From the NCBI RefSeq assembly GCF_000092425.1, contig NC_014221.1:1059001-1123000 (forward strand): a stretch of DNA of 64,000 bases. The letters are read 5' to 3'. A program made the translations under genes and the position numbers. The notes beneath the pieces are model-generated. The model saw only the letters and a list, made by a program, of their open reading frames with translations. It was not told the DNA's origin and did not search any database. This DNA comes from Truepera radiovictrix DSM 17093 (GTDB lineage: Bacteria; Deinococcota; Deinococci; Deinococcales; Trueperaceae). Every line of letters starts with the position of its first letter. The stretch's first letter is position 1. This document shows, in pieces, positions 2,664 to 50,752 of this stretch.

Positions 2664-3487
2664 CGGTGCAGCTCACCGCCCACGCCAAGGTCAACCTCGG
2701 GCTCTCGCTCCTGGGGCGGCGCGGCGACGGTTTTCACGAGATCGACACCGTGATGGTTCGCCTCGACCTCGGCGACCAGCTCACCGTCGCTCTGGGCGCG
2801 CCGGGGGTGCGGCTGCGCGTCGCGGGTGCGGAGCTCGGCATTCCGCCGGAGGAGAACCTCGTCTACCGCGCCGCGGAAGCCTATCTGGGGGCGTGCTCGA
2901 GCGCGTGCGGGGTCGACCTCACCCTCGTCAAACACCTCCCCGCCGCCGCTGGGCTCGGGGGCGGTTCGTCGGACGCGGGCGCGACGCTGCGGGCGCTCGC
3001 GCAGTTGCGCCCCGCCGCGGTCGACCTCGCTGCGCTCGCCGCCGCGCTCGGCTCGGACGTGCCCTTTTTCGCCCGCGACCTGCCGGCGGCGCGCGCGACG
3101 GGGCGCGGCGAGGTGCTGACGCCGCTCGAGCTCCCCCCGCTGCACCTGGTGCTCGCGAACCCCGGCGTGGCGGTGAGCGCCCGCGACGCCTACGGCTACG
3201 TCGCGCGTTACGGCGGCCCGCTCGACGTCCCCGCACTGGTAGCGGGGTTGGCGCGCTACGAGCCGGACTACCCCAACGACCTCGAGCCCGGCGTCATCGC
3301 GCGTGTGCCGGTCGTCGGGGAGGTGCTCGCGGCGCTTCGGGGGGCAGGGCTACGAGGCGTGCGGATGTCGGGGTCGGGTTCGACGTGTTTTGGCCTCGCT
3401 ACGAGCGCGGCGGCGGCGGCGCGCGCCGCCGCCGACCTCGCGCGCGCCCATCCGGCGTGGTGGGTGCGCGCCGCCAAGACCGGCTAA
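2660..3487 (+). CDS. ispE: 4-diphosphocytidyl-2-C-methyl-D-erythritol kinase
   Basis: IspE phosphorylates the 2-hydroxyl of CDP-methylerythritol with ATP. The GHMP-kinase signatures are present: AHAKVNLGLSLLGRRGDGFH at the N-terminus, the glycine-rich ATP loop PAAAGLGGGSSDAGA near residue 95, and a C-terminal MSGSGSTCFGL. GTG 2660 is preferred to a GTG at 2633 because it overlaps the ispD stop as GTGA, exactly as ispD overlaps ubiX, and gives the expected N-terminus of about 275 residues in total. Confidence 0.93.
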   Translation: MTVQLTAHAKVNLGLSLLGRRGDGFHEIDTVMVRLDLGDQLTVALGAPGVRLRVAGAELGIPPEENLVYRAAEAYLGACSSACGVDLTLVKHLPAAAGLGGGSSDAGATLRALAQLRPAAVDLAALAAALGSDVPFFARDLPAARATGRGEVLTPLELPPLHLVLANPGVAVSARDAYGYVARYGGPLDVPALVAGLARYEPDYPNDLEPGVIARVPVVGEVLAALRGAGLRGVRMSGSGSTCFGLATSAAAAARAAADLARAHPAWWVRAAKTG

Positions 3488-3490
3488 GCG

Positions 3491-3766
3491 CTACGGGCGG
3501 TCGGCGTGCCCCAGGTCGCGCTCGGGGTCGATGCGGTCGCGCACGAGCTGCTTGAGCTCCTTCGCCTCGGGAAAGCCGCCTTGCGCCTTGCGGTCCCACA
3601 CGAGCGTGCCATCGACGCGCACCTGAAAGACGCCGCCGGTGCCCGGGACGAGTGCGACCTCGCCGAGGTCGCCCCCAAAGGTGCTCAGCAGCTCCTGGGC
3701 GTACCAACCGGCCCGCAGAAACCAGCGGCACTGCATGCAGAAGAGGATTTCGACGCGAGGGTGCAT
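3491..3766 (-). CDS. SelW/Rdx-family redox protein with CxxC motif
   Basis: This 91-residue protein begins with a beta strand (VEILFC) and a CMQC redox motif at about residues 10-13, followed by a helix (AGWYAQELLSTFGGDLGEVALVPGTGG) and a VFQVRVDGTLVWDRK strand pair. This is the thioredoxin-like layout of the SelT/SelW/SelH (Rdx) family, in the Cys form rather than selenocysteine. Family members are small thiol-redox proteins without a settled substrate. ATG 3766 and an adjacent GTG 3769 are both possible starts. The gene is convergent with ispE, with only three bases between the stops. Confidence 0.8.
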   Translation of the reverse strand: MHPRVEILFCMQCRWFLRAGWYAQELLSTFGGDLGEVALVPGTGGVFQVRVDGTLVWDRKAQGGFPEAKELKQLVRDRIDPERDLGHADRP

Positions 3767-3823
3767 CACACTACCGTAGAGCTTTCTGAGCGGGATGGCT
3801 TCTTCTTGCAGTACATAGGACGC

Positions 3824-4010
3824 TTAGGGCTCTGGAACCGCGAGATCTCGACAGATTTTACAGGTCAGCAAGTCGTTAGACCTCGCGGTGCCTCGGTACC
3901 GCGGAGCTTCCGCCTGCTTTACGGTTGACGTAGACGGCGCAGCTGCTCCCTTCGCGCAAACGTTCGCAGCCTTGCGTTTCCAGATACTCGATGAGGTCAC
4001 GAGGCGTCAG
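3824..4010 (-). pseudogene. hicA: HicA-like mRNA interferase, frameshifted
   Basis: Directly after hicB on the same strand, a frame starts by overlapping the hicB stop (CTG at 4010-4008, an unusual start). It encodes a HicA-like sequence: TPRDLIEYLETQGC, then REGSSCAVYVNRKAGGSSA and VPRHREV, with the expected small basic fold. At 3876-3878 this frame meets TAA. Moving by one base restores NDLLTCKICRDLAVPEP and ends at TAA 3824-3826, the C-terminal pattern of the HicA subfamily with a KICRDL tail. One extra base near 3876-3881 therefore breaks the gene, unless it is a sequencing error. The usual catalytic His position is occupied by Cys in SSCAVYV. Confidence 0.7.
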
Positions 4011-4222
4011 GCAGACAGCGCGAAAGCCTCGAGCTTTTCCTCTGCGAGGAGGCGGTTAGCTTCCAAAACGAGCGCGACGGCTTTCTGTAGCTTCGTCCTG
4101 GCTGCTTCCAAAGTCGCACCTTGGGTGTGCGCGCCTGGCAGTTCCGCGACGAAAGTGACACAGCCCGCTTGAACCTTTTGAAAGACGGCGGTGAGTCGGG
4201 GGGCAGGTCTGTTACCTGTCAT
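4007..4222 (-). CDS. hicB: HicB-family antitoxin
   Basis: This 71-residue protein matches the HicB partial RNase H-like fold: a strand LTAVFQK, then CVTFVAELPGAHTQGATLEAARTKLQKAVALVLEANRLLAEE, where the ELPGAHTQGATLEEA-type turn is the family signature. HicB proteins bind and neutralise HicA and repress their own operon. No clear C-terminal DNA-binding domain is visible. ATG 4222 has GGAGG six bases upstream. The order antitoxin then toxin, with overlapping ends, is typical. Its partner hicA appears broken, so this may now be an orphan antitoxin. Confidence 0.75.
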   Translation of the reverse strand: MTGNRPAPRLTAVFQKVQAGCVTFVAELPGAHTQGATLEAARTKLQKAVALVLEANRLLAEEKLEAFALSA

Positions 4223-4282
4223 ACAACCTCCACAAGGTGGCTTTTCCAAGTCGAGGCGCCGCTCACCACCTTAGTCCGTCAG

Positions 4283-5974
<1,692 letters not shown>

Positions 5975-6079
5975 GGGGCCTCCGGGGGTAAGCCGCGCGC
6001 TGGGGCGCAGCGTTTAAGGTTCCAGTTTACCGGAGCCCCCCTGCGCGGCGAAAGCTAGAGGGGGCCCGCGCGGCGGCAG

Positions 6080-6085
6080 TAGGAT
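6080..6085 (+). promoter_or_regulatory. -10-like box TAGGAT six bases before the galT ATG
   Basis: TAGGAT fits TANNNT and ends six bases before the galT start, with no Shine-Dalgarno sequence between. This is the arrangement of leaderless promoters described in Deinococcus. No convincing -35 element is seen. It recurs before five other genes in the window. Confidence 0.45.
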
Positions 6086-6091
6086 AACCCC

Positions 6092-7141
6092 ATGGACCGC
6101 GCCACCCCCCCCAACGTCCCCCATCGCCGCCTCAATGCGCTCACGGGCAGGTACGTGCTCGTCTCCCCACACCGCACGCAGCGCCCGTGGCAGGGCAAGG
6201 TCGAGGCGCCAGTGCGCGAGACGCGCCCCACCTATGACCCGACGTGCTACCTCTGCCCCGGAAACGCGCGCGCGGGCGGCGTCCGCAACCCGCCCTACGA
6301 GAGCACGTTCGTCTTCGTCAACGACTTCGCAGCGCTGCTGCCCGACCCGCCCGCGTTAGAACCCCCTACGGGGGATCCTATCTTGCAGTGGGAGCCCGTC
6401 CGCGGTGAAAGCCGCGTGATCTGCTTTTCGCCGCGTCACGACCTGACGCTAGCGGAGATGGACCACGCGGCGCTGTGCGAGGTGGTCGCGCTGTGGGTGG
6501 AGCAGCTCGGGGAGTTGGGTGAGCGTTACCGCTGGGTGCAGATCTTCGAATCCAAGGGGGCCATCGTGGGGGCGTCGAACCCGCACCCGCACGGCCAGAT
6601 CTGGGCGAGCGACTTCTTGCCCAACGAGGCGCGCGCCGAGGACGCGCAGCAGCGCCGTTACTGGGAGGCGCACGGCCGGCCGCTCTTGGTGGACTACGCG
6701 GCGCTCGAGCGCGGCGGGGAGCGGGCCGTGGTCGAAAACGCGCACTGGCTGGTGGTCGTACCCTTCTGGGCGTACTGGCCCTTTGAGACGCTCGTCCTCC
6801 CCAAGCGCCACGTGCTCCGTTTGACCGACCTGACGGACGAGGAGCGGGGCGCGCTCGCCGACATTTTGAAGCGGATGCTCGTGCGCTTCGACAACCTCTT
6901 TGAGACCTCGTTTCCCTACCTCTCGGGGTGGCACGGGGCGCCGACGGGGGCAGGCTACGACGAAGACGTGCGCCACTGGCAGCTGCACGCGCACTTCTAC
7001 CCGCCGCTGTTGCGCTCGGCCAGCGTGCAGAAGTTCGTCGCCTCGTACGAGTGGCTCGCCGAGGCGCAGCGCGACCTCTCGGCCGAGGCGGCGGCCGCGC
7101 GGCTGCGCGAGCTGCCTGAGAGGCACTACCGCGCGCGGTAG
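6092..7141 (+). CDS. galT: Galactose-1-phosphate uridylyltransferase
   Basis: GalT exchanges UMP between UDP-glucose and galactose-1-phosphate in the Leloir pathway. The 349-residue protein has the zinc-ligand CYLCPGN near residue 53, the catalytic HPHGQ in [11 protein letters not shown] near residue 165 (the second His is the nucleophile), and later WHGAPTG and [11 protein letters not shown] segments that match family zinc and substrate sites. Length is normal. The gene stands alone, divergent from ilvD. No galK or galE is nearby. Confidence 0.95.
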
Positions 7142-7173
7142 CCGGCGGGGTCAGGGGCGCGGGGCCTGCGGCT

Positions 7174-7202
7174 GGTCACGGGCTACGAGCCTGGCCGTGA
7201 CC
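7174..7202. terminator. Hairpin between convergent galT and PKD lipoprotein genes
   Basis: GGTCACGG at 7174-7181 pairs perfectly with CCGTGACC at 7195-7202, and a smaller GGCT/AGCC helix can form inside. It lies between convergent stops and could act as a bidirectional transcript end. There is no T-run directly after it on either strand. Confidence 0.4.
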
Positions 7203-7228
7203 GCGTTGAATGACACTTGAGGTTTAAT

Positions 7229-7645
7229 TTAAAGGCCGTCTTCCTCGACGATGACGGTGACTTCGTCAAAAGCGTCGAGCTCGCCGTCGGAGACGGTCAC
7301 CTCGACGAGGTATTCACCTGGGTTCTCGAAGGTGTGCCGCTCGACGGGTCCCCCCGTAAAGCTGCGACCTTCGATCACCCACAAGTAGGTGAGCGGCGCC
7401 CCCTCCGGGTCGGTGGCGTTGGCGCGGAGTTCGACCTCTAGGGGGGCGGGGCCGATGTCGGGGAGGGCGACGAGGTTGACCTCGGGTCGCAGGTTGATCG
7501 GCTCGGGCTCGGGGGGTGGGGTGCGCTGGCACGCCCCCAAGAGCGCGGTGGCGATCGCCGCCCCCAAGATGTACCGCCCCCGCGCCGCGCTCTCGGGGGC
7601 ACGGCGCGCCCCGTGCGCGCGTGACGTGTCACGTGGTCTTACCAT
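7229..7645 (-). CDS. PKD-domain lipoprotein
   Basis: The 138-residue protein has an N-terminal basic stretch, a short hydrophobic segment and a lipobox LLGAC at about residues 33-37, so Cys would be lipidated. A Pro-rich spacer follows, then a single PKD-like immunoglobulin fold: VNLVALPDIGPAPLEVEL, ATDPEGAPLTYLW, HTFENPGEYLVEVTVSD. PKD domains usually mediate protein or carbohydrate contact at the cell surface. ATG 7645 is preferred to GTG 7648 because AAGGAG lies six bases before it. Binding partner unknown. Confidence 0.75.
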   Translation of the reverse strand: MVRPRDTSRAHGARRAPESAARGRYILGAAIATALLGACQRTPPPEPEPINLRPEVNLVALPDIGPAPLEVELRANATDPEGAPLTYLWVIEGRSFTGGPVERHTFENPGEYLVEVTVSDGELDAFDEVTVIVEEDGL

Positions 7646-9883: not shown

Positions 9884-11419
9884 ATGGTAGCGGTCAGCCA
9901 AAAGGGTGTAGCGGGGGGGGGCGAGCGCGCCCCCGTGCTCGAGATGCGCGGCGTCAGCAAACGCTTCCCCGGCGTTAAAGCCCTCGACGGTGTCGATTTG
10001 AGCGTCTACGCCGGTGAGATCCACGCCCTCATGGGCGAGAACGGCGCCGGCAAGAGCACCCTCATGAAGATCCTGGCGGGCGCCTACACGGCCGACGCGG
10101 GGGAGATCTTGCTGGACGGCCAGAGTGTGAGCATCCGCAGCCCGCAAGACGCCAAGCGGCTCGGCGTCACGTTGATCTACCAAGAGCTCAACTTAGCCCC
10201 TAACCTGACGGTCGCCGAGAACATCTTTATGGGCAGCGAGCTCGCGCGCGGCGCCCTCGTGCGCCGCGCCGAGATGCAGCGGCGCGCCGGCGAGGTGCTC
10301 CGCACGCTCGCGGCGAGTTTCGGGCCGCAGACGCTCGCGGGCAAGCTGTCGATCGCCGAGCAGCAGCAGGTCGAGATCGCGCGCGCGCTCCTCCACAAAA
10401 GCCGCGTGCTGGTCATGGACGAACCCACCACGGCGCTCTCGGACCGGGAGACGGAGCGTTTGTTCGCGGTGATCCGCCGCCTCAAAGCCGAAGGCTTGGC
10501 GATCATCTATATCAGCCACCGCATGGCCGAGGTGTACGAGCTCGCCGACCGCGTGAGCGTCCTGCGCGACGGCGCCTACGTGGGTACGCTGGCGCGCGCC
10601 GAGCTCTCCTCGAGCCGCTTGGTGCAGCTCATGGTCGGGCGCCCGCTCAAGGAGTTCTACCGCCACGAGCGCGCGACGGGGCGCGCCGAGGTGGTGCTCG
10701 AGGTGCGTGGGCTCGCGGGCGGCAAGGTCAAACCGACGAGCTTTGCGCTGCGCGCGGGTGAGATCGTAGGGCTCGCCGGGCTCGTCGGCGCGGGGCGCAC
10801 GGAGTTGGCGCGCCTCATCTTCGGCGCCGACCCCAAGTCGGCGGGCGAGCTGCACCTGTCGGGGCGGCCGGTGCGCGTCTCTAGCCCCGAGGACGCGGTG
10901 CGCGCCGGCATCGGCTACGTCCCCGAAAACCGCAAGGAGCAGGGGCTGTTTTTGGAGCTCTCGGCGCGGGAGAACATCACCATGAACGTGCTCGCCCAAG
11001 ACGGGCGGGCGGGGGTGCTCAACTTCCGCGCGCTGCGCGCGCGCACCGCCAAGGCCATCGGCGACCTGAACGTACGGGTGGCGAGTCAGGCGACAAAGGC
11101 CCTGAGCCTCTCGGGGGGCAACCAGCAAAAGCTTTTGGTCGCGCGTTGGCTCGAGATCGGCCCGCGCGTGCTGCTTTTAGACGAGCCGACGCGCGGGGTC
11201 GACGTGGGCGCCAAAGGGGAGATCTACCGCATCATGAACGAGCTCGCCGCGCGCGGGGTGGCGATCTTGTTCATCTCCTCGGAGCTGCCCGAGATCATCG
11301 GGATGAGCGACCGCGTGCTCGTGATGCGCGAGGGGGCGCTCGCGGGTGAACTGCGCGCGGGCGAGATTTCACAGGAGGCGATCATGACCCTTGCAACCGG
11401 GGCGACGGAGGTCGCATGA
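9884..11419 (+). CDS. Sugar ABC transporter ATP-binding protein, double-domain RbsA/XylG type
   Basis: This 511-residue protein holds two ABC domains in tandem. The first has Walker [10 protein letters not shown] near residue 48, a [15 protein letters not shown] signature and Walker [12 protein letters not shown]. The second has the altered Walker A typical of RbsA (GLVGAGRTE), a full [15 protein letters not shown] signature and [16 protein letters not shown]. It would energise uptake together with the adjacent permease, whose start overlaps its stop as ATGA. Sugar specificity cannot be read from the ATPase. Confidence 0.93.
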
Positions 11420-34689: not shown

Positions 34690-34865
34690 CGCCACTCGTT
34701 CGCAACCGAGGCGGTGCGGCGGGGGGCGAAGGTCTACGGCCTCAAAAAGGTGCTGGGGCACGCGTCGATTGCGACAACGGGGGTAACCTGCACGCGGACG
34801 AGCTCGAGCAGATGGCGGCGGTTGCCGAGTGTGCTTTAGCAGGGCTGACGGTACAATGGCACTGA
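34690..34865 (+). pseudogene. Remnant of a tyrosine recombinase (XerC/D, phage-integrase family)
   Basis: From 34690 the DNA encodes RHSFATEAVRRGAKVYGL, then KKVLGHASIATTGV, the C-terminal catalytic boxes of a tyrosine recombinase (RHxFAT and LGHxSxxTT). One base is then missing at about 34792; the other frame continues as [19 protein letters not shown], the normal tail. The missing base falls at the codon for the nucleophilic Tyr. The N-terminal domain and the catalytic Arg-I region are absent. It borders the restriction-modification genes and may be the tool that brought them in. Confidence 0.7.
34852..34857 (+). promoter_or_regulatory. -10-like box TACAAT seven bases before the methyltransferase ATG
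   Basis: TACAAT, near consensus, ends seven bases before ATG 34865. This favours that ATG over the upstream in-frame ATG 34856, which overlaps the box, and suggests a leaderless message. Confidence 0.5.
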
Positions 34866-36580
34866 TGACTTCACATCCGGCTCCTTTGTTTGATCTTCCC
34901 GAGGTAAGAAGCCCTGACCTTTTAGAGGCTATCGCGCTGCTGTCGGAGGCCGGAATTGAGGAGCGTGGTGCAGTTTTTACCAACCCTGAGGTTGTTCACT
35001 TCATGCTCGACCTGGTGGGTTACACCGCTGAACATGATCTAACCCAGCTACGCATCCTGGAGCCATCCTTTGGAGACGGTAGTTTTCTTCTGCCGGTGGT
35101 AGACAGGTTATTAGCTTCTTGGAAGCGCCATCATCAGAGTCGTGAACCCTATAGCGTCCTCAAAAACAGTCTAAGAGCAGTAGAGTTACACCGTGATACG
35201 GCTCGGGCGACTGAGCAAAAGGTGATCGCCAAGCTAGAAGCCGCCGGGATCAAAGCAGCTACTGCGCAGGACTTGACTAGAGATTGGCTATTGCAAGATG
35301 ATTTTCTTGCAGCATCTATAGAGGGTAAATTTACACATATTGTCGGTAATCCCCCGTATGTCCGCCAAGAGCTTATTTCGGCACCACTGATGAAGTTTTA
35401 CCGTAGCAAGTACGCGACGGTTTATGATCGAGCCGATCTCTATGTCCCATTCATCGAGCGCGGTCTGAGATTGCTAGAGCCGGGCGGCAAACTCTCCTTT
35501 ATTTGCTCAGATCGATGGATGAAGAACCGCTACGGTAGACGGCTCCGTAAGCTTGTGGCCGACAACTACCACCTGAAGCACTACGTTGACATGGTAGGTA
35601 CTGACGCCTTCAGAACCGAAGTGGCTGCATATACCTCAATCACGACCATCGTAAATGATCGGGGTGACACGACTGCGATAGCCAAGCGCCCGAAGTTGGA
35701 TGCCGCTTATCTAAAGGAATTGGCTGTGCAGCTTAATAACGAAGATCGTGCTGAGGGCGCCCCAGTCGAGGTGATATCCAACGCAGTCAATGGAGATGAG
35801 CCGTGGCTACTGGACTGTGCGCCGCAGCTTCAGCTTATCCGTGCTATCGAACGGGCTTACAAGCCGCTAGAAGAGGCCGGGGGGCGTGTGGGTATTGGAG
35901 TTGCTTCCGGCTGTGACCGGGTGTACATAGCGCCTTACGACGCGCTAGACGTGGAGCCGGAGCGCAAGTTGCCTATTGCGATGGCGCAAGACCTGGCCAG
36001 TGGCCAGTTTGTCTGGGGCGGCAAGGGCATTATCAATCCCTTTGAGGCCGACGGGCAGCTAGCAAATCCCGACCACTATCCCAAATTCGCTGCTTTCCTC
36101 GAGGCTAACCGTAAGACGATAGCTGAACGGCACGTTGCACGGAAAAACCCTTCTGGCTGGTTCCGGACGATCGACCGTATTTATCCGCACCTCGCTGGAG
36201 AAAAAAAACTGCTCATCCCCGATATTCGGAACGAGCCGATTGTGGCTTACGAAGAGGGAACCGCCTACCCGCACCACAATCTCTACTGGGTGACAAGCCG
36301 GACATGGGATCTGCGGGCGCTCCAAGCCGTCCTGCGTTCAGATATAGCGAAGCTATTTGTCTGGGCCTATTCAGTCAAGATGCGGGGTGGCTGGTTGCGT
36401 TTCCAAGCGCAAAACCTGCGCCGCATCTGCCTTCCGGTTTGGGAAACTGTAAGCGAGCAGATGAGGGAAACGCTTATCGAACTAGGCGGTGGCAACGACC
36501 ATGCCGCAATTAACGCAGCTGTGTTCGAGCTTTACAATCTCGACTGGCGCGACATCGAAATAATTAAATCCATCAACTAA
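34865..36580 (+). CDS. Type II N6-adenine DNA methyltransferase, PaeR7I/XhoI-like system
   Basis: The 571-residue protein has the gamma-class order: AdoMet motif [16 protein letters not shown] near residue 60, then catalytic GNPPYVRQE (NPPY, about residue 160), and a C-terminal part likely to contain the target-recognition region. NPPY marks N6-adenine methylation. The adjacent nuclease looks like the XhoI/PaeR7I family, so the expected target is CTCGAG, by inference. Base composition is visibly lower in GC than the flanks, with many A/T third positions, which supports recent transfer. Its stop is 23 bp from the nuclease start. Confidence 0.85.
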
Positions 36581-36603
36581 CACACAGATGGTATGTGTTT
36601 GGG

Positions 36604-37286
36604 ATGGCTCTCGACCTCGCTAATTATCAGGACAAAGTGGCTTCGGCAGTAAAGCGGTTCTGGCAAACCCGCATAAGCTCCGGTGACAATCGGGCTAGCG
36701 TTGTGCAAGGCAAGCACCTTGACGGCTTTTTCGACCTTATTACCGACCTCGCCACCGCGAACGGCCTACCCGCTAGCAGTGTTCGCTCAAAGGGCGACGT
36801 CGTTCTGCCAGGCTACTTCCGAGCCACGAAAACCTGGGACGTGATTGTCGTGCATAAGGAAAATCTGATCGCAGCTTTCGAGTTTAAGTCCCAAGTTGGC
36901 CCTTCTTTTGGTAACAATTTCAATAATCGCTTGGAAGAGGCGATAGGAAGCGCGACAGATCTATGGAGGCTTTCCGAGAGGGAGCTTTTGGCATGGTGCC
37001 ACGCCCGTTTCTAGGCTATTTGGTGCTACTGGAAGACTGCGAGGCGTCAACGAAGCCGGTGAAGGTGGACGAGCCGCACTTTTCCGTGTTTCCAGAGTTT
37101 AGGGGTGCGAGCTACCTCGAGCGCTACAGATTGTTGTGCGAAAAGCTGATGACGGAGCGAATTTATGATTCCGCGACACTGCTTTACTCAGAGCGTACCG
37201 CTGCCAGAGACGGTAGTTATGCCGAATACTACCTCCACGATTTCGTGAGTGGCTTTGCTAGTCACGCGGCAAAGGCTGCCACTTAG
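36604..37286 (+). pseudogene. XhoI/PaeR7I-type restriction endonuclease, frameshifted
   Basis: The first frame gives MALDLANYQDKVASAVKRFW, then VVQGKHLDGFFDLI, KTWDVIVVHKENLIAAFEFK (the Asp and Glu-x-Lys of a PD-(D/E)xK nuclease), SQVGPSFGNNFNNR and ATDLW. At about 36964-36968 one base is missing. The next frame carries on with EAFREGAFG, RPFLGYLVLLEDCEAS, EPHFSVFPEFRGASY and ERYRLLCEKLM, all like PaeR7I. Restoring one G would give about 227 residues, close to the family size. As read, the product stops at residue 136, having the catalytic core but not the C-terminal half. It shares the island's lower GC. Confidence 0.8.
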
Positions 37287-40106: not shown

Positions 40107-40206
40107 GTCCCGTCGGCTCAGCGCGGTGGCGACCCTCGAACCTGGTCAGGTCGAAAGAAGCAGCCATAAGGGGTGATCGTCAGGTGCCGCTGAATCCCGG
40201 CGGGGC
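40107..40206 (+). ncRNA. ffs: Signal recognition particle RNA, small bacterial (4.5S) type
   Basis: The apical hairpin is unmistakable: GGTCAGGTCGAAAGAAGCAGCC (split 40144-40165), with the AGG/AGCAG asymmetric loop bound by Ffh, capped here by a GAAA tetraloop instead of the common GGAA. The outer ends CCCGTCGG (40109-40116) and CCGGCGGG (about 40198-40205) pair to close the rod. Total length is about 100 bases, the short form without an Alu domain. It works with Ffh to direct membrane and secreted proteins to FtsY and SecYEG. It stands between relA and the ABC-SARP gene. Confidence 0.9.
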
Positions 40207-40212: not shown

Positions 40213-40340
40213 GTCACGCCTCGGCATCTCCCGTGAGCACGGTGCCGTGCGGGGCCGCGCCGGTTTTCAAACGACACACCTACGCGCTCAGCGCCGCTCT
40301 TACCTCTAGGTGCTACACTGCCGTTATCCGGGTCGAGGTG

Positions 40341-41600
40341 ATGAAGGCGCCTTACATAGCGCTCGAGGGTGTGAGCAAAGCTTACAAAACCCGCGAGGTG
40401 TTGACGTCTATCTGCCTCGAGGTCGACCGAGGCGACTTCGTCGCCATCGAGGGGGGACCCGAGTCGGGTAAGTCCACCCTGCTCAGCCTTATCGGCCTGC
40501 TCGACACGCCTAGCTCGGGGGCCTACCGCTTAGAGGGGCGCTCGGTCGCTGGGCTTTCCGATACCCAGCGTGCAAGGCTGCGCAACCGGACCTTCGGTTT
40601 CGTCTTTCAAACGCCGACGCTGCTGCCGCAGCTCAGCGCGTGGCAGAACGTCGCGAGGCCGCTGCTCTACGCCGGTGTCGCCCGACGCGAACGGCAAAGA
40701 CGCGCGCTGGAGCTTCTGGAAGCGCTGGACCTCGCCGACCGGGCGCACCTTCGGCCCGCCCACCTCTCCTTCGAGGCGCAGAGGCGCGTCGCGCTCGCCC
40801 GGGCGCTGGTCAACGACCCCCCCATCCTCTTGCTCGACGAGCCGACGAGCCGACTGACAGCAGCGCAGTGGGAGCCGCTGCTCAAGCTCGTCGAGGCGCG
40901 TCACAGAGCGGGCGCGACGGTGCTTCTGACCACGCGCGACCCCGCCGTCGCGGCGCGCTCGAGCACGCGGTACGTGCTCGATGGTGGTCGGCTCGAGCCG
41001 GTGGCGCCGGAGGGGACGGGCGGCACCGAAACGCCCAGCGAGGCGCTAAGGCTCTACGCCCTGGGGAGCCCGCAGGTCTTCTACCGGGGACGACTCTCCC
41101 TCGCGCCCCGCCAGCTCGACATCCTAGCGCTGCTAGCGGCCCACCCCGAAGGGCTGAGCGGCGAACGGCTCCTGCTCCTGACCTACGGCGACGCGGGGAA
41201 GATGGCGACGCTGAAGGCCTCGCTATCGCGGCTCCGCCAGAGCATCCCGATCACCAACCGCCCCTACCGCCTCGGGGTGGCCTGCTACGTCGACTTCACC
41301 GAGGTGACCGAGCTGGTGAAGCGGGGCGAGGTGGCCGCCGCCGTGCAGCGCTACCGGGGGGACTTGCTCCCCGCGTCGGACGCGCCGGGGGTGGTCGAAC
41401 TGCGCGAGACGCTGCTCGAGGCGCTGCGCCAGGCCGCGCTAGCGTCAGAGGATGCCGACGCGGTGTTCGCCCTCGCCGAAACCCAAGGCGACGACCTGGA
41501 GCTCTGGGAAGCTGCCCTTGATCTTCTACCGACCGATAACCCAAAGGTCGCGTTGGCTCAGGCGCATCTCAAGCGGGTTGAGAAGGCGTGGGAAGACTAG
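40341..41600 (+). CDS. Fusion of a LolD/MacB-type ABC ATPase domain with a SARP-like regulator
   Basis: Residues 1-220 of this 419-residue protein form an ABC nucleotide-binding domain: Walker A GGPESGKST (38-46), Q-loop Gln90, Walker B ILLLDEP (162-168). Three active-site elements are altered: the signature is LSFEA (142-146) rather than LSGGQ, the D-loop reads SRLT, and the H-loop His is Arg199 (TTRD). Residues about 235-315 look like an OmpR/SARP winged helix (LSLAPRQLDILALLAAHPEG, LKASLSRLRQSIPITNRPYRL), and 318-415 like a BTAD helical repeat (VDFTEVTELVKRGEVAAAVQ). This pairing of domains is unusual. It may be a nucleotide-sensing regulator derived from a transporter ATPase. ATG 40341 has a GAGG just upstream. 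A conventional exporter operon follows. Confidence 0.8.
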   Translation: MKAPYIALEGVSKAYKTREVLTSICLEVDRGDFVAIEGGPESGKSTLLSLIGLLDTPSSGAYRLEGRSVAGLSDTQRARLRNRTFGFVFQTPTLLPQLSAWQNVARPLLYAGVARRERQRRALELLEALDLADRAHLRPAHLSFEAQRRVALARALVNDPPILLLDEPTSRLTAAQWEPLLKLVEARHRAGATVLLTTRDPAVAARSSTRYVLDGGRLEPVAPEGTGGTETPSEALRLYALGSPQVFYRGRLSLAPRQLDILALLAAHPEGLSGERLLLLTYGDAGKMATLKASLSRLRQSIPITNRPYRLGVACYVDFTEVTELVKRGEVAAAVQRYRGDLLPASDAPGVVELRETLLEALRQAALASEDADAVFALAETQGDDLELWEAALDLLPTDNPKVALAQAHLKRVEKAWED

Positions 41601-41603
41601 GGT

Positions 41604-41627
41604 ACGGGAGACACGGTCGTCTCCCGT
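41604..41627 (+). terminator. Perfect hairpin after the ABC-SARP gene
   Basis: ACGGGAGAC (41604-41612) and GTCTCCCGT (41619-41627) form a nine-base perfect stem with a six-base loop, starting three bases after the stop. There is no proper T-run, so it may be an attenuator or RNA-stabilising end rather than a full terminator. Confidence 0.45.
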
Positions 41628-41645: not shown

Positions 41646-41714
41646 GGCAACCGTAAAGCAACCTTCACGCGCGCGTGTGTAACGCCAGTTTTGCTGGGCA
41701 ACCTTTCGGCAACC
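41646..41714 (+). promoter_or_regulatory. Two pairs of heptamer direct repeats at 11-bp spacing, candidate SARP operator
   Basis: GGCAACC (41646), AGCAACC (41657), GGCAACC (41697) and GGCAACC (41708) are direct repeats. Within each pair the starts are exactly 11 bp apart, giving a seven-base unit plus four-base spacer. SARP-family activators are known to bind such heptamer repeats. They lie between the ABC-SARP gene and the ABC exporter operon. No clear -10 at the usual distance could be fixed. Confidence 0.55.
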
Positions 41715-41747: not shown

Positions 41748-42602
41748 GTGGGGCTGCAAACGTCACTCGCCATTAGAGACCTTGGGTACCGCTACGGCCC
41801 TCGCTGGGCGCTCCGCGGTGTGAGCGCCGCGTTGCAACCTGGCATCACCGGCCTTTTGGGGCCCAACGGCGCGGGCAAGACCACGCTGATGCGGCTCTCG
41901 GTGGGGCTTCTCTCGCCCGACGAGGGAGGGGTCTCCTTGCTAGGTGGCGACCCCTACGAGCACCCTCACCTGCGCTCGCGCGTGGGCTACTTGCCGCAGC
42001 ACTTCAGCCCCCCCAGCTCGATGCGGGTGGGGGCGTACCTCGAGTGCCTCGCGCTGCTTTCAGGCCGGAGTGCGCGGGAGGCGCGTTCCGGCGTCGCCGA
42101 AGCGCTCGCTGCGGTCGGTCTGAGCGACCGCAGCCGCAGTACGCTCGGGTCCCTCTCCGGCGGGATGTTGCGGCGCGTGGGGGTCGCTCAAGCTATCGCC
42201 CACCGCCCGCAGCTTCTTATCGTCGATGAGCCGGCGGCTGGGCTCGACCCCGAAGAGCGCGCGCGCCTCTACCGCAGCTTGAGGGACGCGGCGGCGGAGC
42301 GGCCCGTGCTGGTGTCGTCTCACATGGTGGACGAGATCGAAAGAGAAGCCGACGCCGTGTGGTTTTTGCGCAGAGGTGAGCTCGTGTGGACGGGCCCCGT
42401 GGAGGAGGCTCTGGCGCAGATGGCTGGGCGGGTGAGGGAAGGGGAGCTGCCGCGGGGTGCGGCGCCAAGAGGCGTCGTCGTCGCCGAAAAGCGGACTGCG
42501 GGCGGCACCCATTGGCGCGTGATCGGCGAGGACGGCAGGCTAAAGGTTTGTCAGCCGACCTTGCTCGACGCCTACCTCGCGCACGTGGGTCAGGGTACTT
42601 GA
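41748..42602 (+). CDS. ABC transporter ATP-binding protein (CcmA/ABC-2 exporter type)
   Basis: The 284-residue protein has all canonical motifs: Walker A LLGPNGAGKTTLMRL near residue 37, Q-loop region VGYLPQHFSPPSSMRVGAYLECLALLSG, full signature LSGGMLRRVGVAQAI, Walker B LLIVDEPAAGLDPEER, and H-loop VLVSSHMVDEIE. The shape is that of ABC-2 exporter ATPases, like those for drugs, peptides or sodium. GTG 41748 is favoured over GTG 41742 by the GGGAGG placed five bases before it. Four bases separate it from the next gene. It is the catalytically normal counterpart of the altered ABC domain encoded upstream. Confidence 0.88.
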   Translation: MGLQTSLAIRDLGYRYGPRWALRGVSAALQPGITGLLGPNGAGKTTLMRLSVGLLSPDEGGVSLLGGDPYEHPHLRSRVGYLPQHFSPPSSMRVGAYLECLALLSGRSAREARSGVAEALAAVGLSDRSRSTLGSLSGGMLRRVGVAQAIAHRPQLLIVDEPAAGLDPEERARLYRSLRDAAAERPVLVSSHMVDEIEREADAVWFLRRGELVWTGPVEEALAQMAGRVREGELPRGAAPRGVVVAEKRTAGGTHWRVIGEDGRLKVCQPTLLDAYLAHVGQGT

Positions 42603-42608
42603 GCTGTG

Positions 42609-44390
42609 ATGAGGCCGCATTTTTTTAGGACGCTCTGGCTCGGTGCGAGGCTCGAGTGGCTGCGCCTGAGGGCAAACCCGGCGAGTTGGCCTCTCGCGGG
42701 GCTCCTCATCGCCGGGGGACTCATCGTCGGACGCCTGGACGCTGCCAGCTTTGGGCTGCACAGCCTGTTCGACACCTTGCAGCTCGCGATGTTTTTAACG
42801 GTCGTTTCGGCCTTCTGGGGGTGGCAGGCGACCGCAGCGGCGGTTCATCCGCGGGCGAGGGAAGTTTTAGCTGCAAGAGCCGTCGACGAGTGGACCCTGC
42901 AGGGGGCTCGGGTCGCCGTGACGGGGCTCTACGGTGGCCTGATCACCTTCCTCGCCTTTCTGGCTCTGGCCGTGCCGCGCTACTACCTCCTAGCGCCCTG
43001 GTGGGTGGGGCTGCGTTGGCTCCCCGTGATCGTTCTCGCCCACACGCTGGCGGCGTCCCTAGGAGGGCTAGCTGCTCTCCTTTCTGTACGTAGACCGGGT
43101 CTCGGCGTGCCCCTCACCCTAGGGCTGTGGGGTGCCTGGGTGGGGCTCGCGCCGGTGTTCGGCCCGCTGTGGCCCGACCTCTTCTTGCGGGTGCTGCGTT
43201 GGAACGACGTGCTGCAAGACGCGGCCATCGAGCCCTTGCGTTGGCCCTTGCTCGTCAGCTTTGCCTTGGCAACCCTGGTTACGCTTACCCTCGGCACCTC
43301 GCTGCTATGGGGGCTCGAGCGCCGACGTTTGGCCGTGACGAAACCTCCCGCCATGCGCTCGGCAGCGCTTCTGGGGGTGGTGCTGGCCTTGGGGGTGGGC
43401 CTGCTGGGTTTGGGGAGCGCCTGGGCCGCTAGGGAACGGGCGCTCACGCTCGCAGCGCCCCGCCAGGGCAGCGCCGCGCGTAGCCTCTTTTGGAACCCGG
43501 CGCGCTTGACGCTCTCGGTAGAGCGTGAAGCCAACCGTGAAAAGCTTCGTGGACCCGCTCGGCCGACCGCCGTCGCCCCCCGCGACTTCATGACCTTCGC
43601 CCCCTATATCGGTCGGCACGGCGTCGTCTTGCCGATAGGCCGCGTTGAAGCGGGTCGTTACGACTTCACCGTATATCCTTCGTCCGGCTGGGAGCTTTAC
43701 GGGTGCTCCCGGGTGGCTCCAAACGGCGAGGGGGTGCGGTGTGCGGGGGCAGACGCCGAGGCGGACTGGTTGCTGATCTTGCCGGAAGGCGCGCTCGAGA
43801 CGGCGGACCGGGCGATGCGCGCGCTCGACCCGACGCTTTACGAGGCGAAAGCCCTCTACGACGCCTCGGTGCGCGCTGCGCTCGCCAAGCTGGAGCGACC
43901 TGTTCCGGAGATCCTACCGTTTGGTGGCAGTGGGTCGCTGTGGTTGGGCGAGAAGACCCTTGCGGGCGCGACGGTGTTCGGCGAGCGCGCGCTGATGCGG
44001 CGCCAAGCGGTGCATGAGGCGGCGGTCACCGTAGCGGCGAACCTGCTCGGCGTGAGGAAGCCCAACGAGGCGCTCTATTCGGCGCAGAGCCCGTTGGAAC
44101 CCAATGTGCCGCTCGCGCTCGTGGCAGTTCTCGACCGGCTGCTCTTGGAGGGCGCCGACCTCGAGCCGGCAGAAGCCGCGGTTCGCGGCGGGGAGGAGGT
44201 GGCCCTAGCTGACCGGCGCTATCCCCTCTACCCCTTTGACGACGGTAGGCGCCCGGAGTACAACACGTGGTGGCTCTCAACCCACGACCGCCTTGCGCAG
44301 GGTGTGCCCGAGGGGGAGCTGTGGGCCGCCCTTCGCAACGTTACAGATTGGAACGGCGTCGAGTCGTGGAACGACCTCCTGCGCCGCTAA
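42609..44390 (+). CDS. Membrane protein, probable ABC-2-type permease with a large extracytoplasmic domain
   Basis: The 593-residue protein has about seven hydrophobic helices in its first 275 residues (for example PLAGLLIAGGLIVG, LAMFLTVVSAFWGW, VTGLYGGLITFLAFLALAV, LLVSFALATLVTLTLGTSLL, LLGVVLALGVGLLGLG), then roughly 310 soluble residues predicted outside. Within that part, HEAAV in RRQAVHEAAVTVAANLLG resembles a metallopeptidase HExxH missing its second His, as if derived from the M1-like domain found on some ABC permeases; this is weak. Start ATG 42609 (GTG 42606 also possible). It is co-transcribed with the ATPase and the next membrane gene. Confidence 0.65.
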   Translation: MRPHFFRTLWLGARLEWLRLRANPASWPLAGLLIAGGLIVGRLDAASFGLHSLFDTLQLAMFLTVVSAFWGWQATAAAVHPRAREVLAARAVDEWTLQGARVAVTGLYGGLITFLAFLALAVPRYYLLAPWWVGLRWLPVIVLAHTLAASLGGLAALLSVRRPGLGVPLTLGLWGAWVGLAPVFGPLWPDLFLRVLRWNDVLQDAAIEPLRWPLLVSFALATLVTLTLGTSLLWGLERRRLAVTKPPAMRSAALLGVVLALGVGLLGLGSAWAARERALTLAAPRQGSAARSLFWNPARLTLSVEREANREKLRGPARPTAVAPRDFMTFAPYIGRHGVVLPIGRVEAGRYDFTVYPSSGWELYGCSRVAPNGEGVRCAGADAEADWLLILPEGALETADRAMRALDPTLYEAKALYDASVRAALAKLERPVPEILPFGGSGSLWLGEKTLAGATVFGERALMRRQAVHEAAVTVAANLLGVRKPNEALYSAQSPLEPNVPLALVAVLDRLLLEGADLEPAEAAVRGGEEVALADRRYPLYPFDDGRRPEYNTWWLSTHDRLAQGVPEGELWAALRNVTDWNGVESWNDLLRR

Positions 44391-44407
44391 AGCTTACGCG
44401 CGCTCGG

Positions 44408-45049
44408 GTGCCGCCGTGGTCGCGCGTGGAGGGTGCGCTCCGGTTGGCGCTGCTCCTCAACCGCCCCCTCCTGCTGAGCTACCTCGTCGCCGTGCCCACG
44501 GCCCTCTACCTGCTCACGCTGATGTCCGACGTCGCTGCGGAGCGGTGGCTCGTCCTGGAGGTCTTGTTCATCCCCTTGGGCGTCGTTTTCAGTGCGGATA
44601 CGTTTCTAGGACGCTACGAAAGGGGGGAGCTCGAGCTCCTGCTAGCGCGCCGTTCGGCCCGTGCGCTCTTCGTGTGCCTCGTTGCGCCTAGCGTCGCCCT
44701 GCTGCTCCTCGGCAGCGGAAGTATCAGCTTGTTGGTGTCGCAAGGGGGTCCGCTCGCTGCGCTCGCTCGCGCAGCGTTGCTGCTCGGCGCGACGCATCTC
44801 TTGCTCGTTCTCACGCGTAGCCGTCCGTTCGCCCTGTCGCTCTTCGGCCTGTGGTGGCTTACTGGCTTCGCCTTTATGGTGCCCTGGGTTGAAGCGGCGC
44901 CTACAGCGCTGCTGCTCCTGCACCCCATGCGCCTCAGCGGGGGTGGGGCGATGGACGCGGGCCTTGAGGGCGCTACGCTGCTCGTGGGTGTCGGTTCGTT
45001 CGTGGCCGCTTGGTGGGCGGTTGGCCGCGCGAAGCGGTGGGTGACCTGA
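44408..45049 (+). CDS. Small ABC-2-like membrane protein
   Basis: About 213 residues with six hydrophobic segments: RLALLLNRPLLLSYLVAV, WLVLEVLFIPLGVVFSADTF, LFVCLVAPSVALLLLGSGSI, ALLLGATHLLLVL, FALSLFGLWWLTGFAFMVPWV and GATLLVGVGSFVAAWWAVG. The GRYERGELELLLARRSA stretch resembles the cytoplasmic coupling loop of ABC-2 permeases, which often reads ExxxGTlelLLarP. It is the last of three genes of this exporter operon. GTG 44408 is chosen as start, but no ribosome-binding site decides it; GTG 44366 within the previous gene is possible. Confidence 0.6.
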   Translation: MPPWSRVEGALRLALLLNRPLLLSYLVAVPTALYLLTLMSDVAAERWLVLEVLFIPLGVVFSADTFLGRYERGELELLLARRSARALFVCLVAPSVALLLLGSGSISLLVSQGGPLAALARAALLLGATHLLLVLTRSRPFALSLFGLWWLTGFAFMVPWVEAAPTALLLLHPMRLSGGGAMDAGLEGATLLVGVGSFVAAWWAVGRAKRWVT

Positions 45050-48427: not shown

Positions 48428-50752
48428 ATGTCGTCCTTCCTGCTCGCACTCATCGTCGGGCTGGGTGGCTGGCTGCTGGTCTTTGGCGCGCGCGCGGTCC
48501 GCTGGGTGGAGGGGAGTTCGCGCGACTATGTGGTGGGGCGAGACCCGACCCTCGAGCCCCGTAGCGACGCGAACCTTTCGCTCAGCCACTTCGGGGAGGC
48601 GCTGAGGGCGCTGCAGCGCAGCGTCCCCGGCGACTACCGCGCTTACGCCAAAACGTCGCTCACGGGGCGGCGTATCGAACTGGAGGACGGCGCCAGCTTC
48701 CCGCTCTTTAGAGAGCTGTATGTGAGCGCTACCTTCTTCAGTGCTAGGGGGGTGGAGGTGCAGCGTGGTCGCCTGTGGGACGAGGCGGAGGGGGGCGCTG
48801 CCGTCATCGGCTACGGGCTCGCCCGGAGGCTTTTCGGCGCGGCGCAGCTCGCCGTAGGGAAGCGCGTCCGGCTCTACGCTCCGGGGGCGGTGACAAACAC
48901 CGAAGAAAAGGTCATCGTCGGGGTTTTGGGGCCGAGCCCCTCTCAAGACCCCGAGCTCGACGCCGACGACGCGCTCGTGTTGCCGCTCGCGAGGCGGCTG
49001 GAGGAGGAGCAGGGAGAGCCCCTTTACCTCTTCGTCCGCTTTGAAGGCGCTTCTGAGGCCGAGCGGGTCGTACCCCACATGCGCGCTTGGTCGGAGGCGC
49101 ACTTTGGCCCGGAGGGTATCGCCGAACCGATAGATAACCTCGTGCAGGAGCGGGGCCGCTTTGCCGAGGACGCCTTGGAAAGTCTAGCGGCTAGGCGCAT
49201 TACACTCGTCACGTTTACCGTGCTGCTCACCCTTGCTATGGTCACGACGCTCTACACGCACCTCGGTTGGTCGTACGCGCTCGAGCGGCGCCGCTTGGGG
49301 CTCGAGCGCGCGCTGGGAGCGTCACGCGTAGGGGCGACGCTCGCCTTCGCCAAGGGCCAGCTCTTGTGGAGCCTCATCGGGGGCGGCGCAGGAGGTATCG
49401 GCTTGTGGCTGCTTGGGCCCAGGTTGGGGGCGCGTTTGGGCAGCTTGGAACCCCCGCTGCTCCTCCTCGCGGCGCTGGTTCCTTCACTGACGCTGCTCCC
49501 GCTCCTCGTGGCGACCCTCGCACCCCTGATGCGTCAGCCCGTGGCCGTCTCGCTGCGGCCTCCGCGACCTCGCGGGTGCGCTCGCCTCCCCATCTACCTG
49601 GCGTACGGCGGGCTCTCGTTGGCGCTTTCGGGCGGGATTGCGGCGACGCAGGTCTACCTGCACCTGCGAGGGGAGGCGTCCGGCTTAGAAGCGCGCTTTT
49701 CGAGGCTTTATACCCTCCAGACGGGCGCGAGCGTGCTCGACTTTCGCGCCGAACGCGCCCTCGAAGCGCTTCAAGCCGTCCCCGCTTTTGGTGGGGAGGA
49801 CGTGAGGGCGCTGACGTCGCTCCCAGGGGTCCGTCGGGGGAGTTTGGCGCAAACGCTGCCACACCTGACGGTCAGCTCGGGTGGGCGGCAGCTCTCCGCG
49901 TGGACCGTCGTGGCCGACGGAGCCTACATGGGGCTGTTGGGGCTGAGCTACGGGGAGGGGACGGGTGCGCCGGAGGGGTGCGCGGTGAGTCGGCGCGTGG
50001 CTGACGCGTTGAGGGTCGGGATCGGCGCGCGCCTCGAGCTGTCGGGGAGGGGGGGTGTAGCGACCTGCGTCGTCAGCGGCACCTTGGCGCCCCCTCCCGC
50101 TCACTGGGGGTGGCTGATCGCCGACCTGCCCGAGGTCGTCGTGGCGCCCGCAGCGGGCCGCGGTTTGACGGGTGCCGTCTCTGCCGAGGCCCCCTTTCGC
50201 TCGACGCGGGTGCTGCTCGAGCTCGCCTCGCCAGAAGCTGCGCAGGAGGTCGAGGCGTGGCGCGTGCGGTCGCGGCCCGAGGTGCGAGCGGAGCTGCTGC
50301 CGCACGTCCCGGACGTCCAGGTGCTGCTTTCGGCGTGGCGCGCCGAGGTGCGGCTGGCCCTCCTCATGGCCCTACTCGCCCTGGGCGTCGGGGTGACGGG
50401 CGTCTTGAGCGGCGGGTTGCTTTTTGTACGCCGCGAACGGGCTCGTGTCGCGCTGGACCGGGCGCTGGGCCTGTCCGCGCGTCGCCTCACCCGACTATGG
50501 TGGCTGCAGACGCTCGGTCTGGGGCTGCTCTGCGTCTTGGCCGGTGGGTCGGTCGGATACGCGCTCACCATTAGGCTCTACAACGCCCTGAGCCTCGCTG
50601 CGCCGGGCTGGCCTACGCTCGAGGCTGCCGTGCTGCATCCGGGTCTGGTGCTGTTAACGGTTCTGGTACTTTTAGCCGCCAGTACGGCGGGCGTTCTTTT
50701 GGCGGCGCGTTGGGTGCGGCGGCAGGCGCTCCTCCCCCATGAGGGCCGTTAA
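48428..50752 (+). CDS. FtsX/MacB-type ABC transporter permease, N-terminus possibly frameshifted
   Basis: The 774-residue protein has the FtsX plan: a first helix (SSFLLALIVGLGGWLLVFG), a periplasmic MacB-PCD-like domain to about residue 255, three helices (LVTFTVLLTLAMVTTLYTHL, then two more to residue 370), another helix and soluble domain, and three C-terminal helices (LLMALLALGVGVTGVLSGGLLF to the end). The frame starts at ATG 48428, but VALAALKERRERGKR encoded one base out of frame at 48366-48410 looks like the missing cytoplasmic N-terminus (next residues LRFTLA in the main frame). One deleted C at about 48410 would explain this. No ATPase gene is adjacent; the LolD-like partner type occurs only in the ABC-SARP fusion. 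Confidence 0.8.
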   Translation: MSSFLLALIVGLGGWLLVFGARAVRWVEGSSRDYVVGRDPTLEPRSDANLSLSHFGEALRALQRSVPGDYRAYAKTSLTGRRIELEDGASFPLFRELYVSATFFSARGVEVQRGRLWDEAEGGAAVIGYGLARRLFGAAQLAVGKRVRLYAPGAVTNTEEKVIVGVLGPSPSQDPELDADDALVLPLARRLEEEQGEPLYLFVRFEGASEAERVVPHMRAWSEAHFGPEGIAEPIDNLVQERGRFAEDALESLAARRITLVTFTVLLTLAMVTTLYTHLGWSYALERRRLGLERALGASRVGATLAFAKGQLLWSLIGGGAGGIGLWLLGPRLGARLGSLEPPLLLLAALVPSLTLLPLLVATLAPLMRQPVAVSLRPPRPRGCARLPIYLAYGGLSLALSGGIAATQVYLHLRGEASGLEARFSRLYTLQTGASVLDFRAERALEALQAVPAFGGEDVRALTSLPGVRRGSLAQTLPHLTVSSGGRQLSAWTVVADGAYMGLLGLSYGEGTGAPEGCAVSRRVADALRVGIGARLELSGRGGVATCVVSGTLAPPPAHWGWLIADLPEVVVAPAAGRGLTGAVSAEAPFRSTRVLLELASPEAAQEVEAWRVRSRPEVRAELLPHVPDVQVLLSAWRAEVRLALLMALLALGVGVTGVLSGGLLFVRRERARVALDRALGLSARRLTRLWWLQTLGLGLLCVLAGGSVGYALTIRLYNALSLAAPGWPTLEAAVLHPGLVLLTVLVLLAASTAGVLLAARWVRRQALLPHEGR

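Follow-up and report, generated by a model that had tools for sequence, protein, structure and literature searches.

Truepera radiovictrix is an extremophile bacterium, and the genome of strain RQ-24T, a single contig of 3,260,398 bp, encodes a protein whose architecture poses a question: why should the nucleotide-binding domain (NBD) of an ABC transporter be joined, in one polypeptide, to a DNA-binding module like that of SARP transcription regulators? The gene lies in a stretch of 64,000 nucleotides, here called the window, in which Truepera features are numbered. We propose that its product, P0001, is a pathway-specific transcription activator derived from a transporter ATPase. Its degenerate NBD would dock on P0002, a MacB-like permease without an NBD of its own, and relay the state of the permease to a SARP-like activator of an exporter promoter. 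We assign this model as a whole a probability of about 0.5. The gene, its parts and its immediate surroundings are as follows.

40110-40206: bacterial small SRP RNA (RF00169, 54.8 bits)
40341..41600, plus strand: P0001, fusion of an ABC NBD and a SARP-like module, 419 aa (open reading frame, domain matches, motif alignment)
40341..41015, plus strand: MacB/LolD-type ABC domain, residues 1-225 (ABC_tran 1.6e-24; motif table; pLDDT about 90)
40452..40478, plus strand: P-loop GGPESGKST with Glu for the fourth-position Gly (motif alignment)
40764..40778, plus strand: signature motif LSFEA in place of LSGGQ (motif alignment)
40935..40937, plus strand: switch residue Arg199 (CGC) in place of His (motif alignment)
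41016..41084, plus strand: linker between the halves, flexible and of low confidence in the structure model
41085..41300, plus strand: OmpR-type winged helix, Trans_reg_C-like (Pfam, family profile)
41301..41597, plus strand: BTAD-like helical tail (weak Pfam support; helices in the structure model)
41604..41627, plus strand: perfect inverted repeat after the stop codon, possibly the transcript end

The frame runs without interruption for 419 codons from the ATG at 40341 to the stop codon at 41598-41600, as the earlier note on this DNA had read it. Since similarity to other NBDs begins at residue 4-6, this ATG is favoured over a GTG upstream at 40233. The SRP RNA stands between relA/spoT and the P0001 gene and is accompanied by a terminator-like stem, so that the gene is probably transcribed apart from relA/spoT. 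An artefactual joining of two genes by a sequencing error, which the earlier note had named as a finding that would overturn its reading, was rejected as unlikely: the DNA belongs to a finished genome, read to 70.6x by Illumina and 82.5x by pyrosequencing and published with the same length of 3,260,398 bp (PMC3072082), no stop codon interrupts the frame, and a like fusion occurs in a second genome, G088. Elsewhere in the window, an XhoI-family restriction endonuclease gene (36595-37286) next to an Eco57I-type methylase gene (34829-36580) is split over two overlapping frames, which cover profile positions 11-105 and 106-191, and is probably a frameshifted nuclease.

Judged by its sequence, the N-terminal half of P0001 is an ABC NBD by descent and of the MacB/LolD type, as a whole-domain match indicates. 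Residues 23-170 match ABC_tran of Pfam with 1.6e-24, the closest solved relatives are MacB and LolD chains (1e-38 or better), and the nearest subfamilies are MacB, LolD and FtsE; the NBD proposed by the earlier note is thus confirmed. The structure model is confident for this domain and flexible beyond residue 223. The nearest NBD to that of P0001, with 51% identity (G092, L086:8237-9061), has canonical motifs except for the D-loop GNLP and no permease gene alongside, and is possibly an orphan NBD of the same kind.

Alignment with 21 other NBDs shows which catalytic elements of P0001 have changed. The signature reads LSFEA, the D-loop SRLT, and Arg199 occupies the position of the switch His, all three as the earlier note had stated, while Gln90 of the Q-loop and the complete Walker B motif LLLDEP with its Glu are present, again in agreement with it. 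Its statement that Walker A is kept holds for Lys44 and Ser45 only: where GxSGxGKS (GxxGxGK[ST] as the general form) is expected, P0001 has GGPESGKST, and the glycine replaced by glutamate is found in 20 of the 21 aligned NBDs. We then counted columns with a 60% consensus among canonical NBDs, excluding residues 175-195 and 203-220. P0001 keeps 26 of 40 such columns in the catalytic motifs vs 46 of 55 in the other summed regions, and 10 of 10 in the helical segment presumed to face the permease. ABC ATPases are normally conserved above all in their catalytic motifs, so that the greater alteration of these motifs here looks like selective loss. Since hydrolysis by ABC ATPases in general depends on the signature glycines and the switch His, it is very likely impaired in P0001; nucleotide is probably still bound.

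The C-terminal half is best recognized through its family. Alone, this part of P0001 matches Trans_reg_C with 0.004, below the Pfam cut-off; among 20 aligned family members, 11 match Trans_reg_C (best 1e-5), and the profile built from their alignment finds OmpR-type winged helices in the PDB. At the family level the module is therefore an OmpR-type winged helix, as far as profile matches can tell, and the domain searches the earlier note had called for bear out its ABC half directly and its OmpR/SARP-type half via the family. The BTAD-like repeat it had also described stands on weaker ground, with matches in 5 of the 20 members (best E 0.014) and none past the Pfam threshold. The structure model of this half, built from two sequences, is of moderate confidence (pLDDT 67), and a Foldseek search with it returned nothing significant. 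The module occurs in 83 of 111 Deinococcota genomes, a set from which Deinococcaceae are possibly absent. The N-terminus was inspected for about 75 listed matches, the rest having frame lengths of the STAND-like or TPR class, and the module is preceded by TPR, STAND-like plus TPR or GAF-like parts, by a short N-terminus or by ABC, most often by TPR, STAND-like or GAF; "STAND-like" and "GAF-like" are readings of the sequence, and Pfam confirms only the TPRs. T. radiovictrix itself has four copies, with ABC, TPR, STAND-like and GAF-like N-termini. On this sequence record, the module is an exchangeable output unit widespread in Deinococcota.

SARP binding sites are direct repeats 11 or 22 bp apart, with the 3' repeat 8 bp from the -10 element (PMC10936776; PMC10972967). 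Two repeat pairs of the 11-bp kind lie in the 142-bp gap behind P0001 and are directed at the neighbouring exporter operon.

41646..41663, plus strand: box 1, GGCAACC-N4-AGCAACC, predicted operator
41697..41714, plus strand: box 2, GGCAACC-N4-GGCAACC, predicted operator
41751..42602, plus strand: exporter ATPase, DrrA/GldA-like NBD with canonical motifs, predicted target; the start may be GTG 41742
42606..44390, plus strand: 594-aa exporter membrane protein without Pfam match, predicted target
44330..45049, plus strand: third exporter gene, multi-TM membrane protein of uncertain start, predicted target

Exactly two copies of the pattern RGCAACC-N4-RGCAACC, with its period of 11 bp, are found in the 3.26-Mb genome; both lie in this gap, and the backward-read control does not occur at all. 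As the boxes were first spotted by eye, post hoc, the pattern was tested at other module loci. In 195 kb flanking 70 module genes there are seven GCAACC pairs at 11 bp where about 0.05 are expected, and none at the remaining spacings of 6-27 bp; five of the seven come from genomes other than Truepera. When hexamers are ranked at 11-bp spacing, GCAACC comes first, followed by CAACC variants. The predicted DNA target is thus well supported, and P0001 itself is likely to be the protein that binds the boxes. By-eye reading found TCTAAT 8 bp beyond the repeat at a radical-SAM gene in G096 and no clear -10 element 8 bp from either Truepera box. Hand sums across the class give roughly 105 sites for GCAACC-N5-GCAACC vs roughly 58 for its backward control, so that most lone sites not near a module gene are background. 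A wider box regulon in Truepera is not indicated either, one-mismatch sites numbering 34 vs 26 in the backward control, which is no clear excess.

The earlier note had suggested that the fusion activates the exporter encoded next to it. The two genome-unique SARP-type pairs aimed at this operon speak strongly for that claim, as predicted sites, and P0001 probably acts as an activator rather than a repressor. A search of the other 110 genomes with the 594-aa exporter protein gave a single match, weak and partial, in G031 (E 6.8e-4), and with so few relatives conservation of gene order cannot serve to link exporter and P0001.

Similar boxes stand near module genes in other Deinococcota. In G096, a STAND-like module regulator of 825 aa (L173, G096:C89:5000-18500, 2782-7548) adjoins a likely RiPP cluster with a radical-SAM/SPASM maturase related to TIGR04463, an M16 peptidase, an MFS exporter and a small peptide-like ORF; GCAACC or GTAACC boxes precede three transcription units of this cluster, namely the maturase, peptidase and small peptide-like genes. 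A regulator of the same type, found by protein similarity alone, is encoded on a Deinococcus sp. KNUC1210 plasmid (L185, NZ_CP092194.1:215367-221924) with a 57%-identical radical-SAM gene alongside, an MsnO8-like oxidoreductase and short peptide ORFs. The divergent promoter of the plasmid cluster is occupied by GGCAACC and GTAACC pairs with the 11-bp spacing. The box thus marks radical-SAM peptide clusters in Deinococcota, the regulation of which becomes directly testable. In four Trueperaceae genomes (L169, L170, L172, L174), boxes precede a small LuxR/GerE-type gene of 179-213 aa that runs convergently to the module regulator gene, as GCAACC in G106, G108 and G099 and as GTAACC in G093. PimR-PimM is a two-step cascade, and the box-preceded LuxR/GerE gene and the module regulator may form a similar one. 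Behind the Truepera TPR paralogue (L088:8422-10128), a GTTACC-type repeat appears four times at an exact 11-bp period (10306-10344), the fourth copy being incomplete; the following 2 kb or so hold no assigned gene and no Rfam match. Two GAF-like module genes (L098 and L099, in G097 and G098) have AGGTTGG pairs at 11 bp upstream, a CAACC-like element. For this large family of Deinococcota regulators, apparently uncharacterised so far, GCAACC-N5-GCAACC is a predicted DNA site.

The second fusion bears on the input side of P0001. Among the 111 genomes, G088, of the same family as Truepera, is the only other one with an ABC-module fusion, so that the genome survey the earlier note had suggested added one case; pattern scans of species genomes and tblastn of plasmids added none, and we found no ABC-SARP fusion in open-access papers. 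The ABC half of the G088 fusion matches the ABC domain family weakly (3.4e-4) and has lost the P-loop Lys, the Gln, the signature, the Walker B DE and the switch His. The best trees, in which the branch of the G088 NBD is very long, place the two fusions apart, and an AU test does not reject a single clade (p 0.36). At the G088 locus no GCAACC box was found; its 11-bp repeats amount to one TGCAGC pair upstream of the presumed operon, within chance. Just upstream of the fusion, a secreted or lipoprotein-like ORF of 281 aa (L073:5632-6477), without family match, may belong to the same operon. The fusion gene overlaps the next gene, which encodes a MacB-like permease (MacB_PCD 9.4e-15).

In Truepera, the proposed counterpart lies 7 kb from the P0001 gene.

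48428..50752, plus strand: P0002, MacB-like permease without adjacent NBD, proposed membrane partner (MacB_PCD 1.7e-20)

P0002 was chosen for its lack of an NBD before its distribution was known. A search of the 111 genomes with P0002 found only itself and the G088 permease (1.5e-15, reciprocal), a match that the other Truepera MacB permeases do not share; most of them have an NBD of their own adjoining. The chance that two traits placed randomly in 2 of 111 genomes coincide is 1.6e-4. As in BceAB-type systems, a MacB-type permease is thus tied to the regulator, with MacB_PCD in both permeases and gene adjacency only in G088. Against the partnership, the genes of P0001 and P0002 do not share an operon, and a further two FtsX-type permeases of the Truepera genome (2068k and 3086k) also lack an adjacent MacB-type NBD. 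Among the non-ABC relatives of the module, the only link seen to a MacB permease is a MacB cluster near one of them (G096:C48, L085). On balance we lean towards docking of the P0001 ABC half on P0002. The idea of the earlier note that a transporter ATPase was turned into a state sensor remains plausible in this form, with the shared rare permease pointing to P0002 as the partner and not to the adjacent exporter.

We therefore hypothesize the following mechanism. The large extracytoplasmic domains of P0002 would sense a signal. On the cytoplasmic side, the MacB/LolD-type domain of P0001, which would bind nucleotide and no longer hydrolyse it efficiently, would dock on the permease, and docking or the dimer state of the NBD would gate the DNA-binding half. 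The winged-helix/BTAD-like module would then bind the two 11-bp direct-repeat boxes and drive the three-gene exporter operon. In G088 the ABC half is wholly non-catalytic, and hence only the docking and relay role could remain there.

The ABC half could instead work as a soluble switch, with a stand-alone ATP-binding half controlling DNA binding without any permease, like the NOD of AfsR. The intact Lys44/Ser45, Walker B and Gln90 of P0001 would suit such a switch, as would the TPR, STAND-like and GAF input domains of the module relatives and the absence of a MacB-type permease gene adjoining P0001. Yet the nucleotide site of G088 is wholly gone, so that nucleotide sensing cannot be the function common to both fusions, which share a rare permease family; the presumed docking segment of P0001, moreover, keeps every consensus residue. 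We consider a soluble switch unlikely.

Two further readings have less in their favour. MalK, an ABC ATPase subunit, informs the transcription activator MalT of the state of its transporter, and P0001 might combine both tasks in one polypeptide, as a working or regulatory NBD of the adjacent exporter, or of another transporter, that feeds back on the operon. The exporter operon does adjoin P0001 and carry the boxes, and P0001 retains the Walker A Lys and Walker B. However, the exporter comes with a canonical NBD, which belongs to another subfamily (DrrA/GldA-like), P0001 is without the signature glycines and switch His needed for hydrolysis, and its MacB/LolD type does not fit the non-FtsX membrane proteins of the exporter, which makes a dual role improbable. 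The proposed docking model has its own weak points, as the fusion is known from two genomes only and any of the three other Truepera module copies might bind the boxes. On that account another regulator, for instance the STAND-like or GAF paralogue, could own the sites and P0001 be an accident of evolution whose ABC half is decaying, to which the rarity of the fusion, its motif losses and the four module copies would conform. We give this little credence: P0001 has an unbroken frame and keeps consensus positions outside the catalytic motifs, the only exact boxes of the genome lie directly behind it, just as boxes accompany module genes in other genera, and the G088 fusion retains the same permease partner.

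Among known regulators, AfsR, composed of SARP, NOD and TPR parts, is similar to P0001 in that an OmpR-type winged helix followed by BTAD-like helices is joined to a P-loop NTPase, and in that AfsR-type SARPs have 11-bp direct-repeat sites before their targets, which the predicted sites of P0001 resemble (PMC10936776, PMC10972967). The NTPase of AfsR, however, is a STAND/NB-ARC domain and that of P0001 an ABC transporter NBD, and the DNA-binding module is N-terminal in AfsR-type SARPs and C-terminal in P0001, where the match to BTAD falls short of the Pfam threshold. The Deinococcota STAND-like/TPR and GAF proteins share the C-terminal winged-helix module with P0001 (35-51% identity) and, in several genera, have GCAACC boxes nearby as P0001 does; they differ in their input half, which is STAND-like plus TPR, TPR or GAF and not an ABC NBD. 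The difference from MalK is that the latter is a working ATPase contacting a separate regulator, whereas P0001 is one chain with ATPase motifs lost. Rather than carrying substrate through the membrane, MacB-type proteins transmit conformational changes across it, and their relative BceAB senses antibiotics together with a two-component system (PMC5985334; PMC7828314). In BceAB-BceRS, too, a MacB-type (type VII) permease with its NBD serves as sensor for gene expression, as proposed here; it relies on an active ATPase, a histidine kinase and a response regulator, in contrast to the degenerate NBD of P0001 joined to a DNA-binding module (PMC5985334, PMC7828314). By its sequence features P0001 resembles both an NTPase-switch SARP and BceAB-type sensing, and it is assigned to neither, given the altered LSGGQ and switch His, the reversed domain order and the weak BTAD match. 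Our results suggest that the T. radiovictrix fusion is a variant of transporter-coupled regulation in which a transporter would be wired directly to a promoter. Only tentatively do we see in it a new signalling class, which would lead from an ATPase-less MacB-type permease through a pseudo-ATPase NBD-SARP-like fusion to the promoter, with no kinase, response regulator or ATP hydrolysis. If this is correct, it would represent a route from transporter to receptor, along which the ATPase decays into an adaptor with a promoter-binding module, and transporter-coupled sensing as in BceAB and MalK would be shortened to two proteins.
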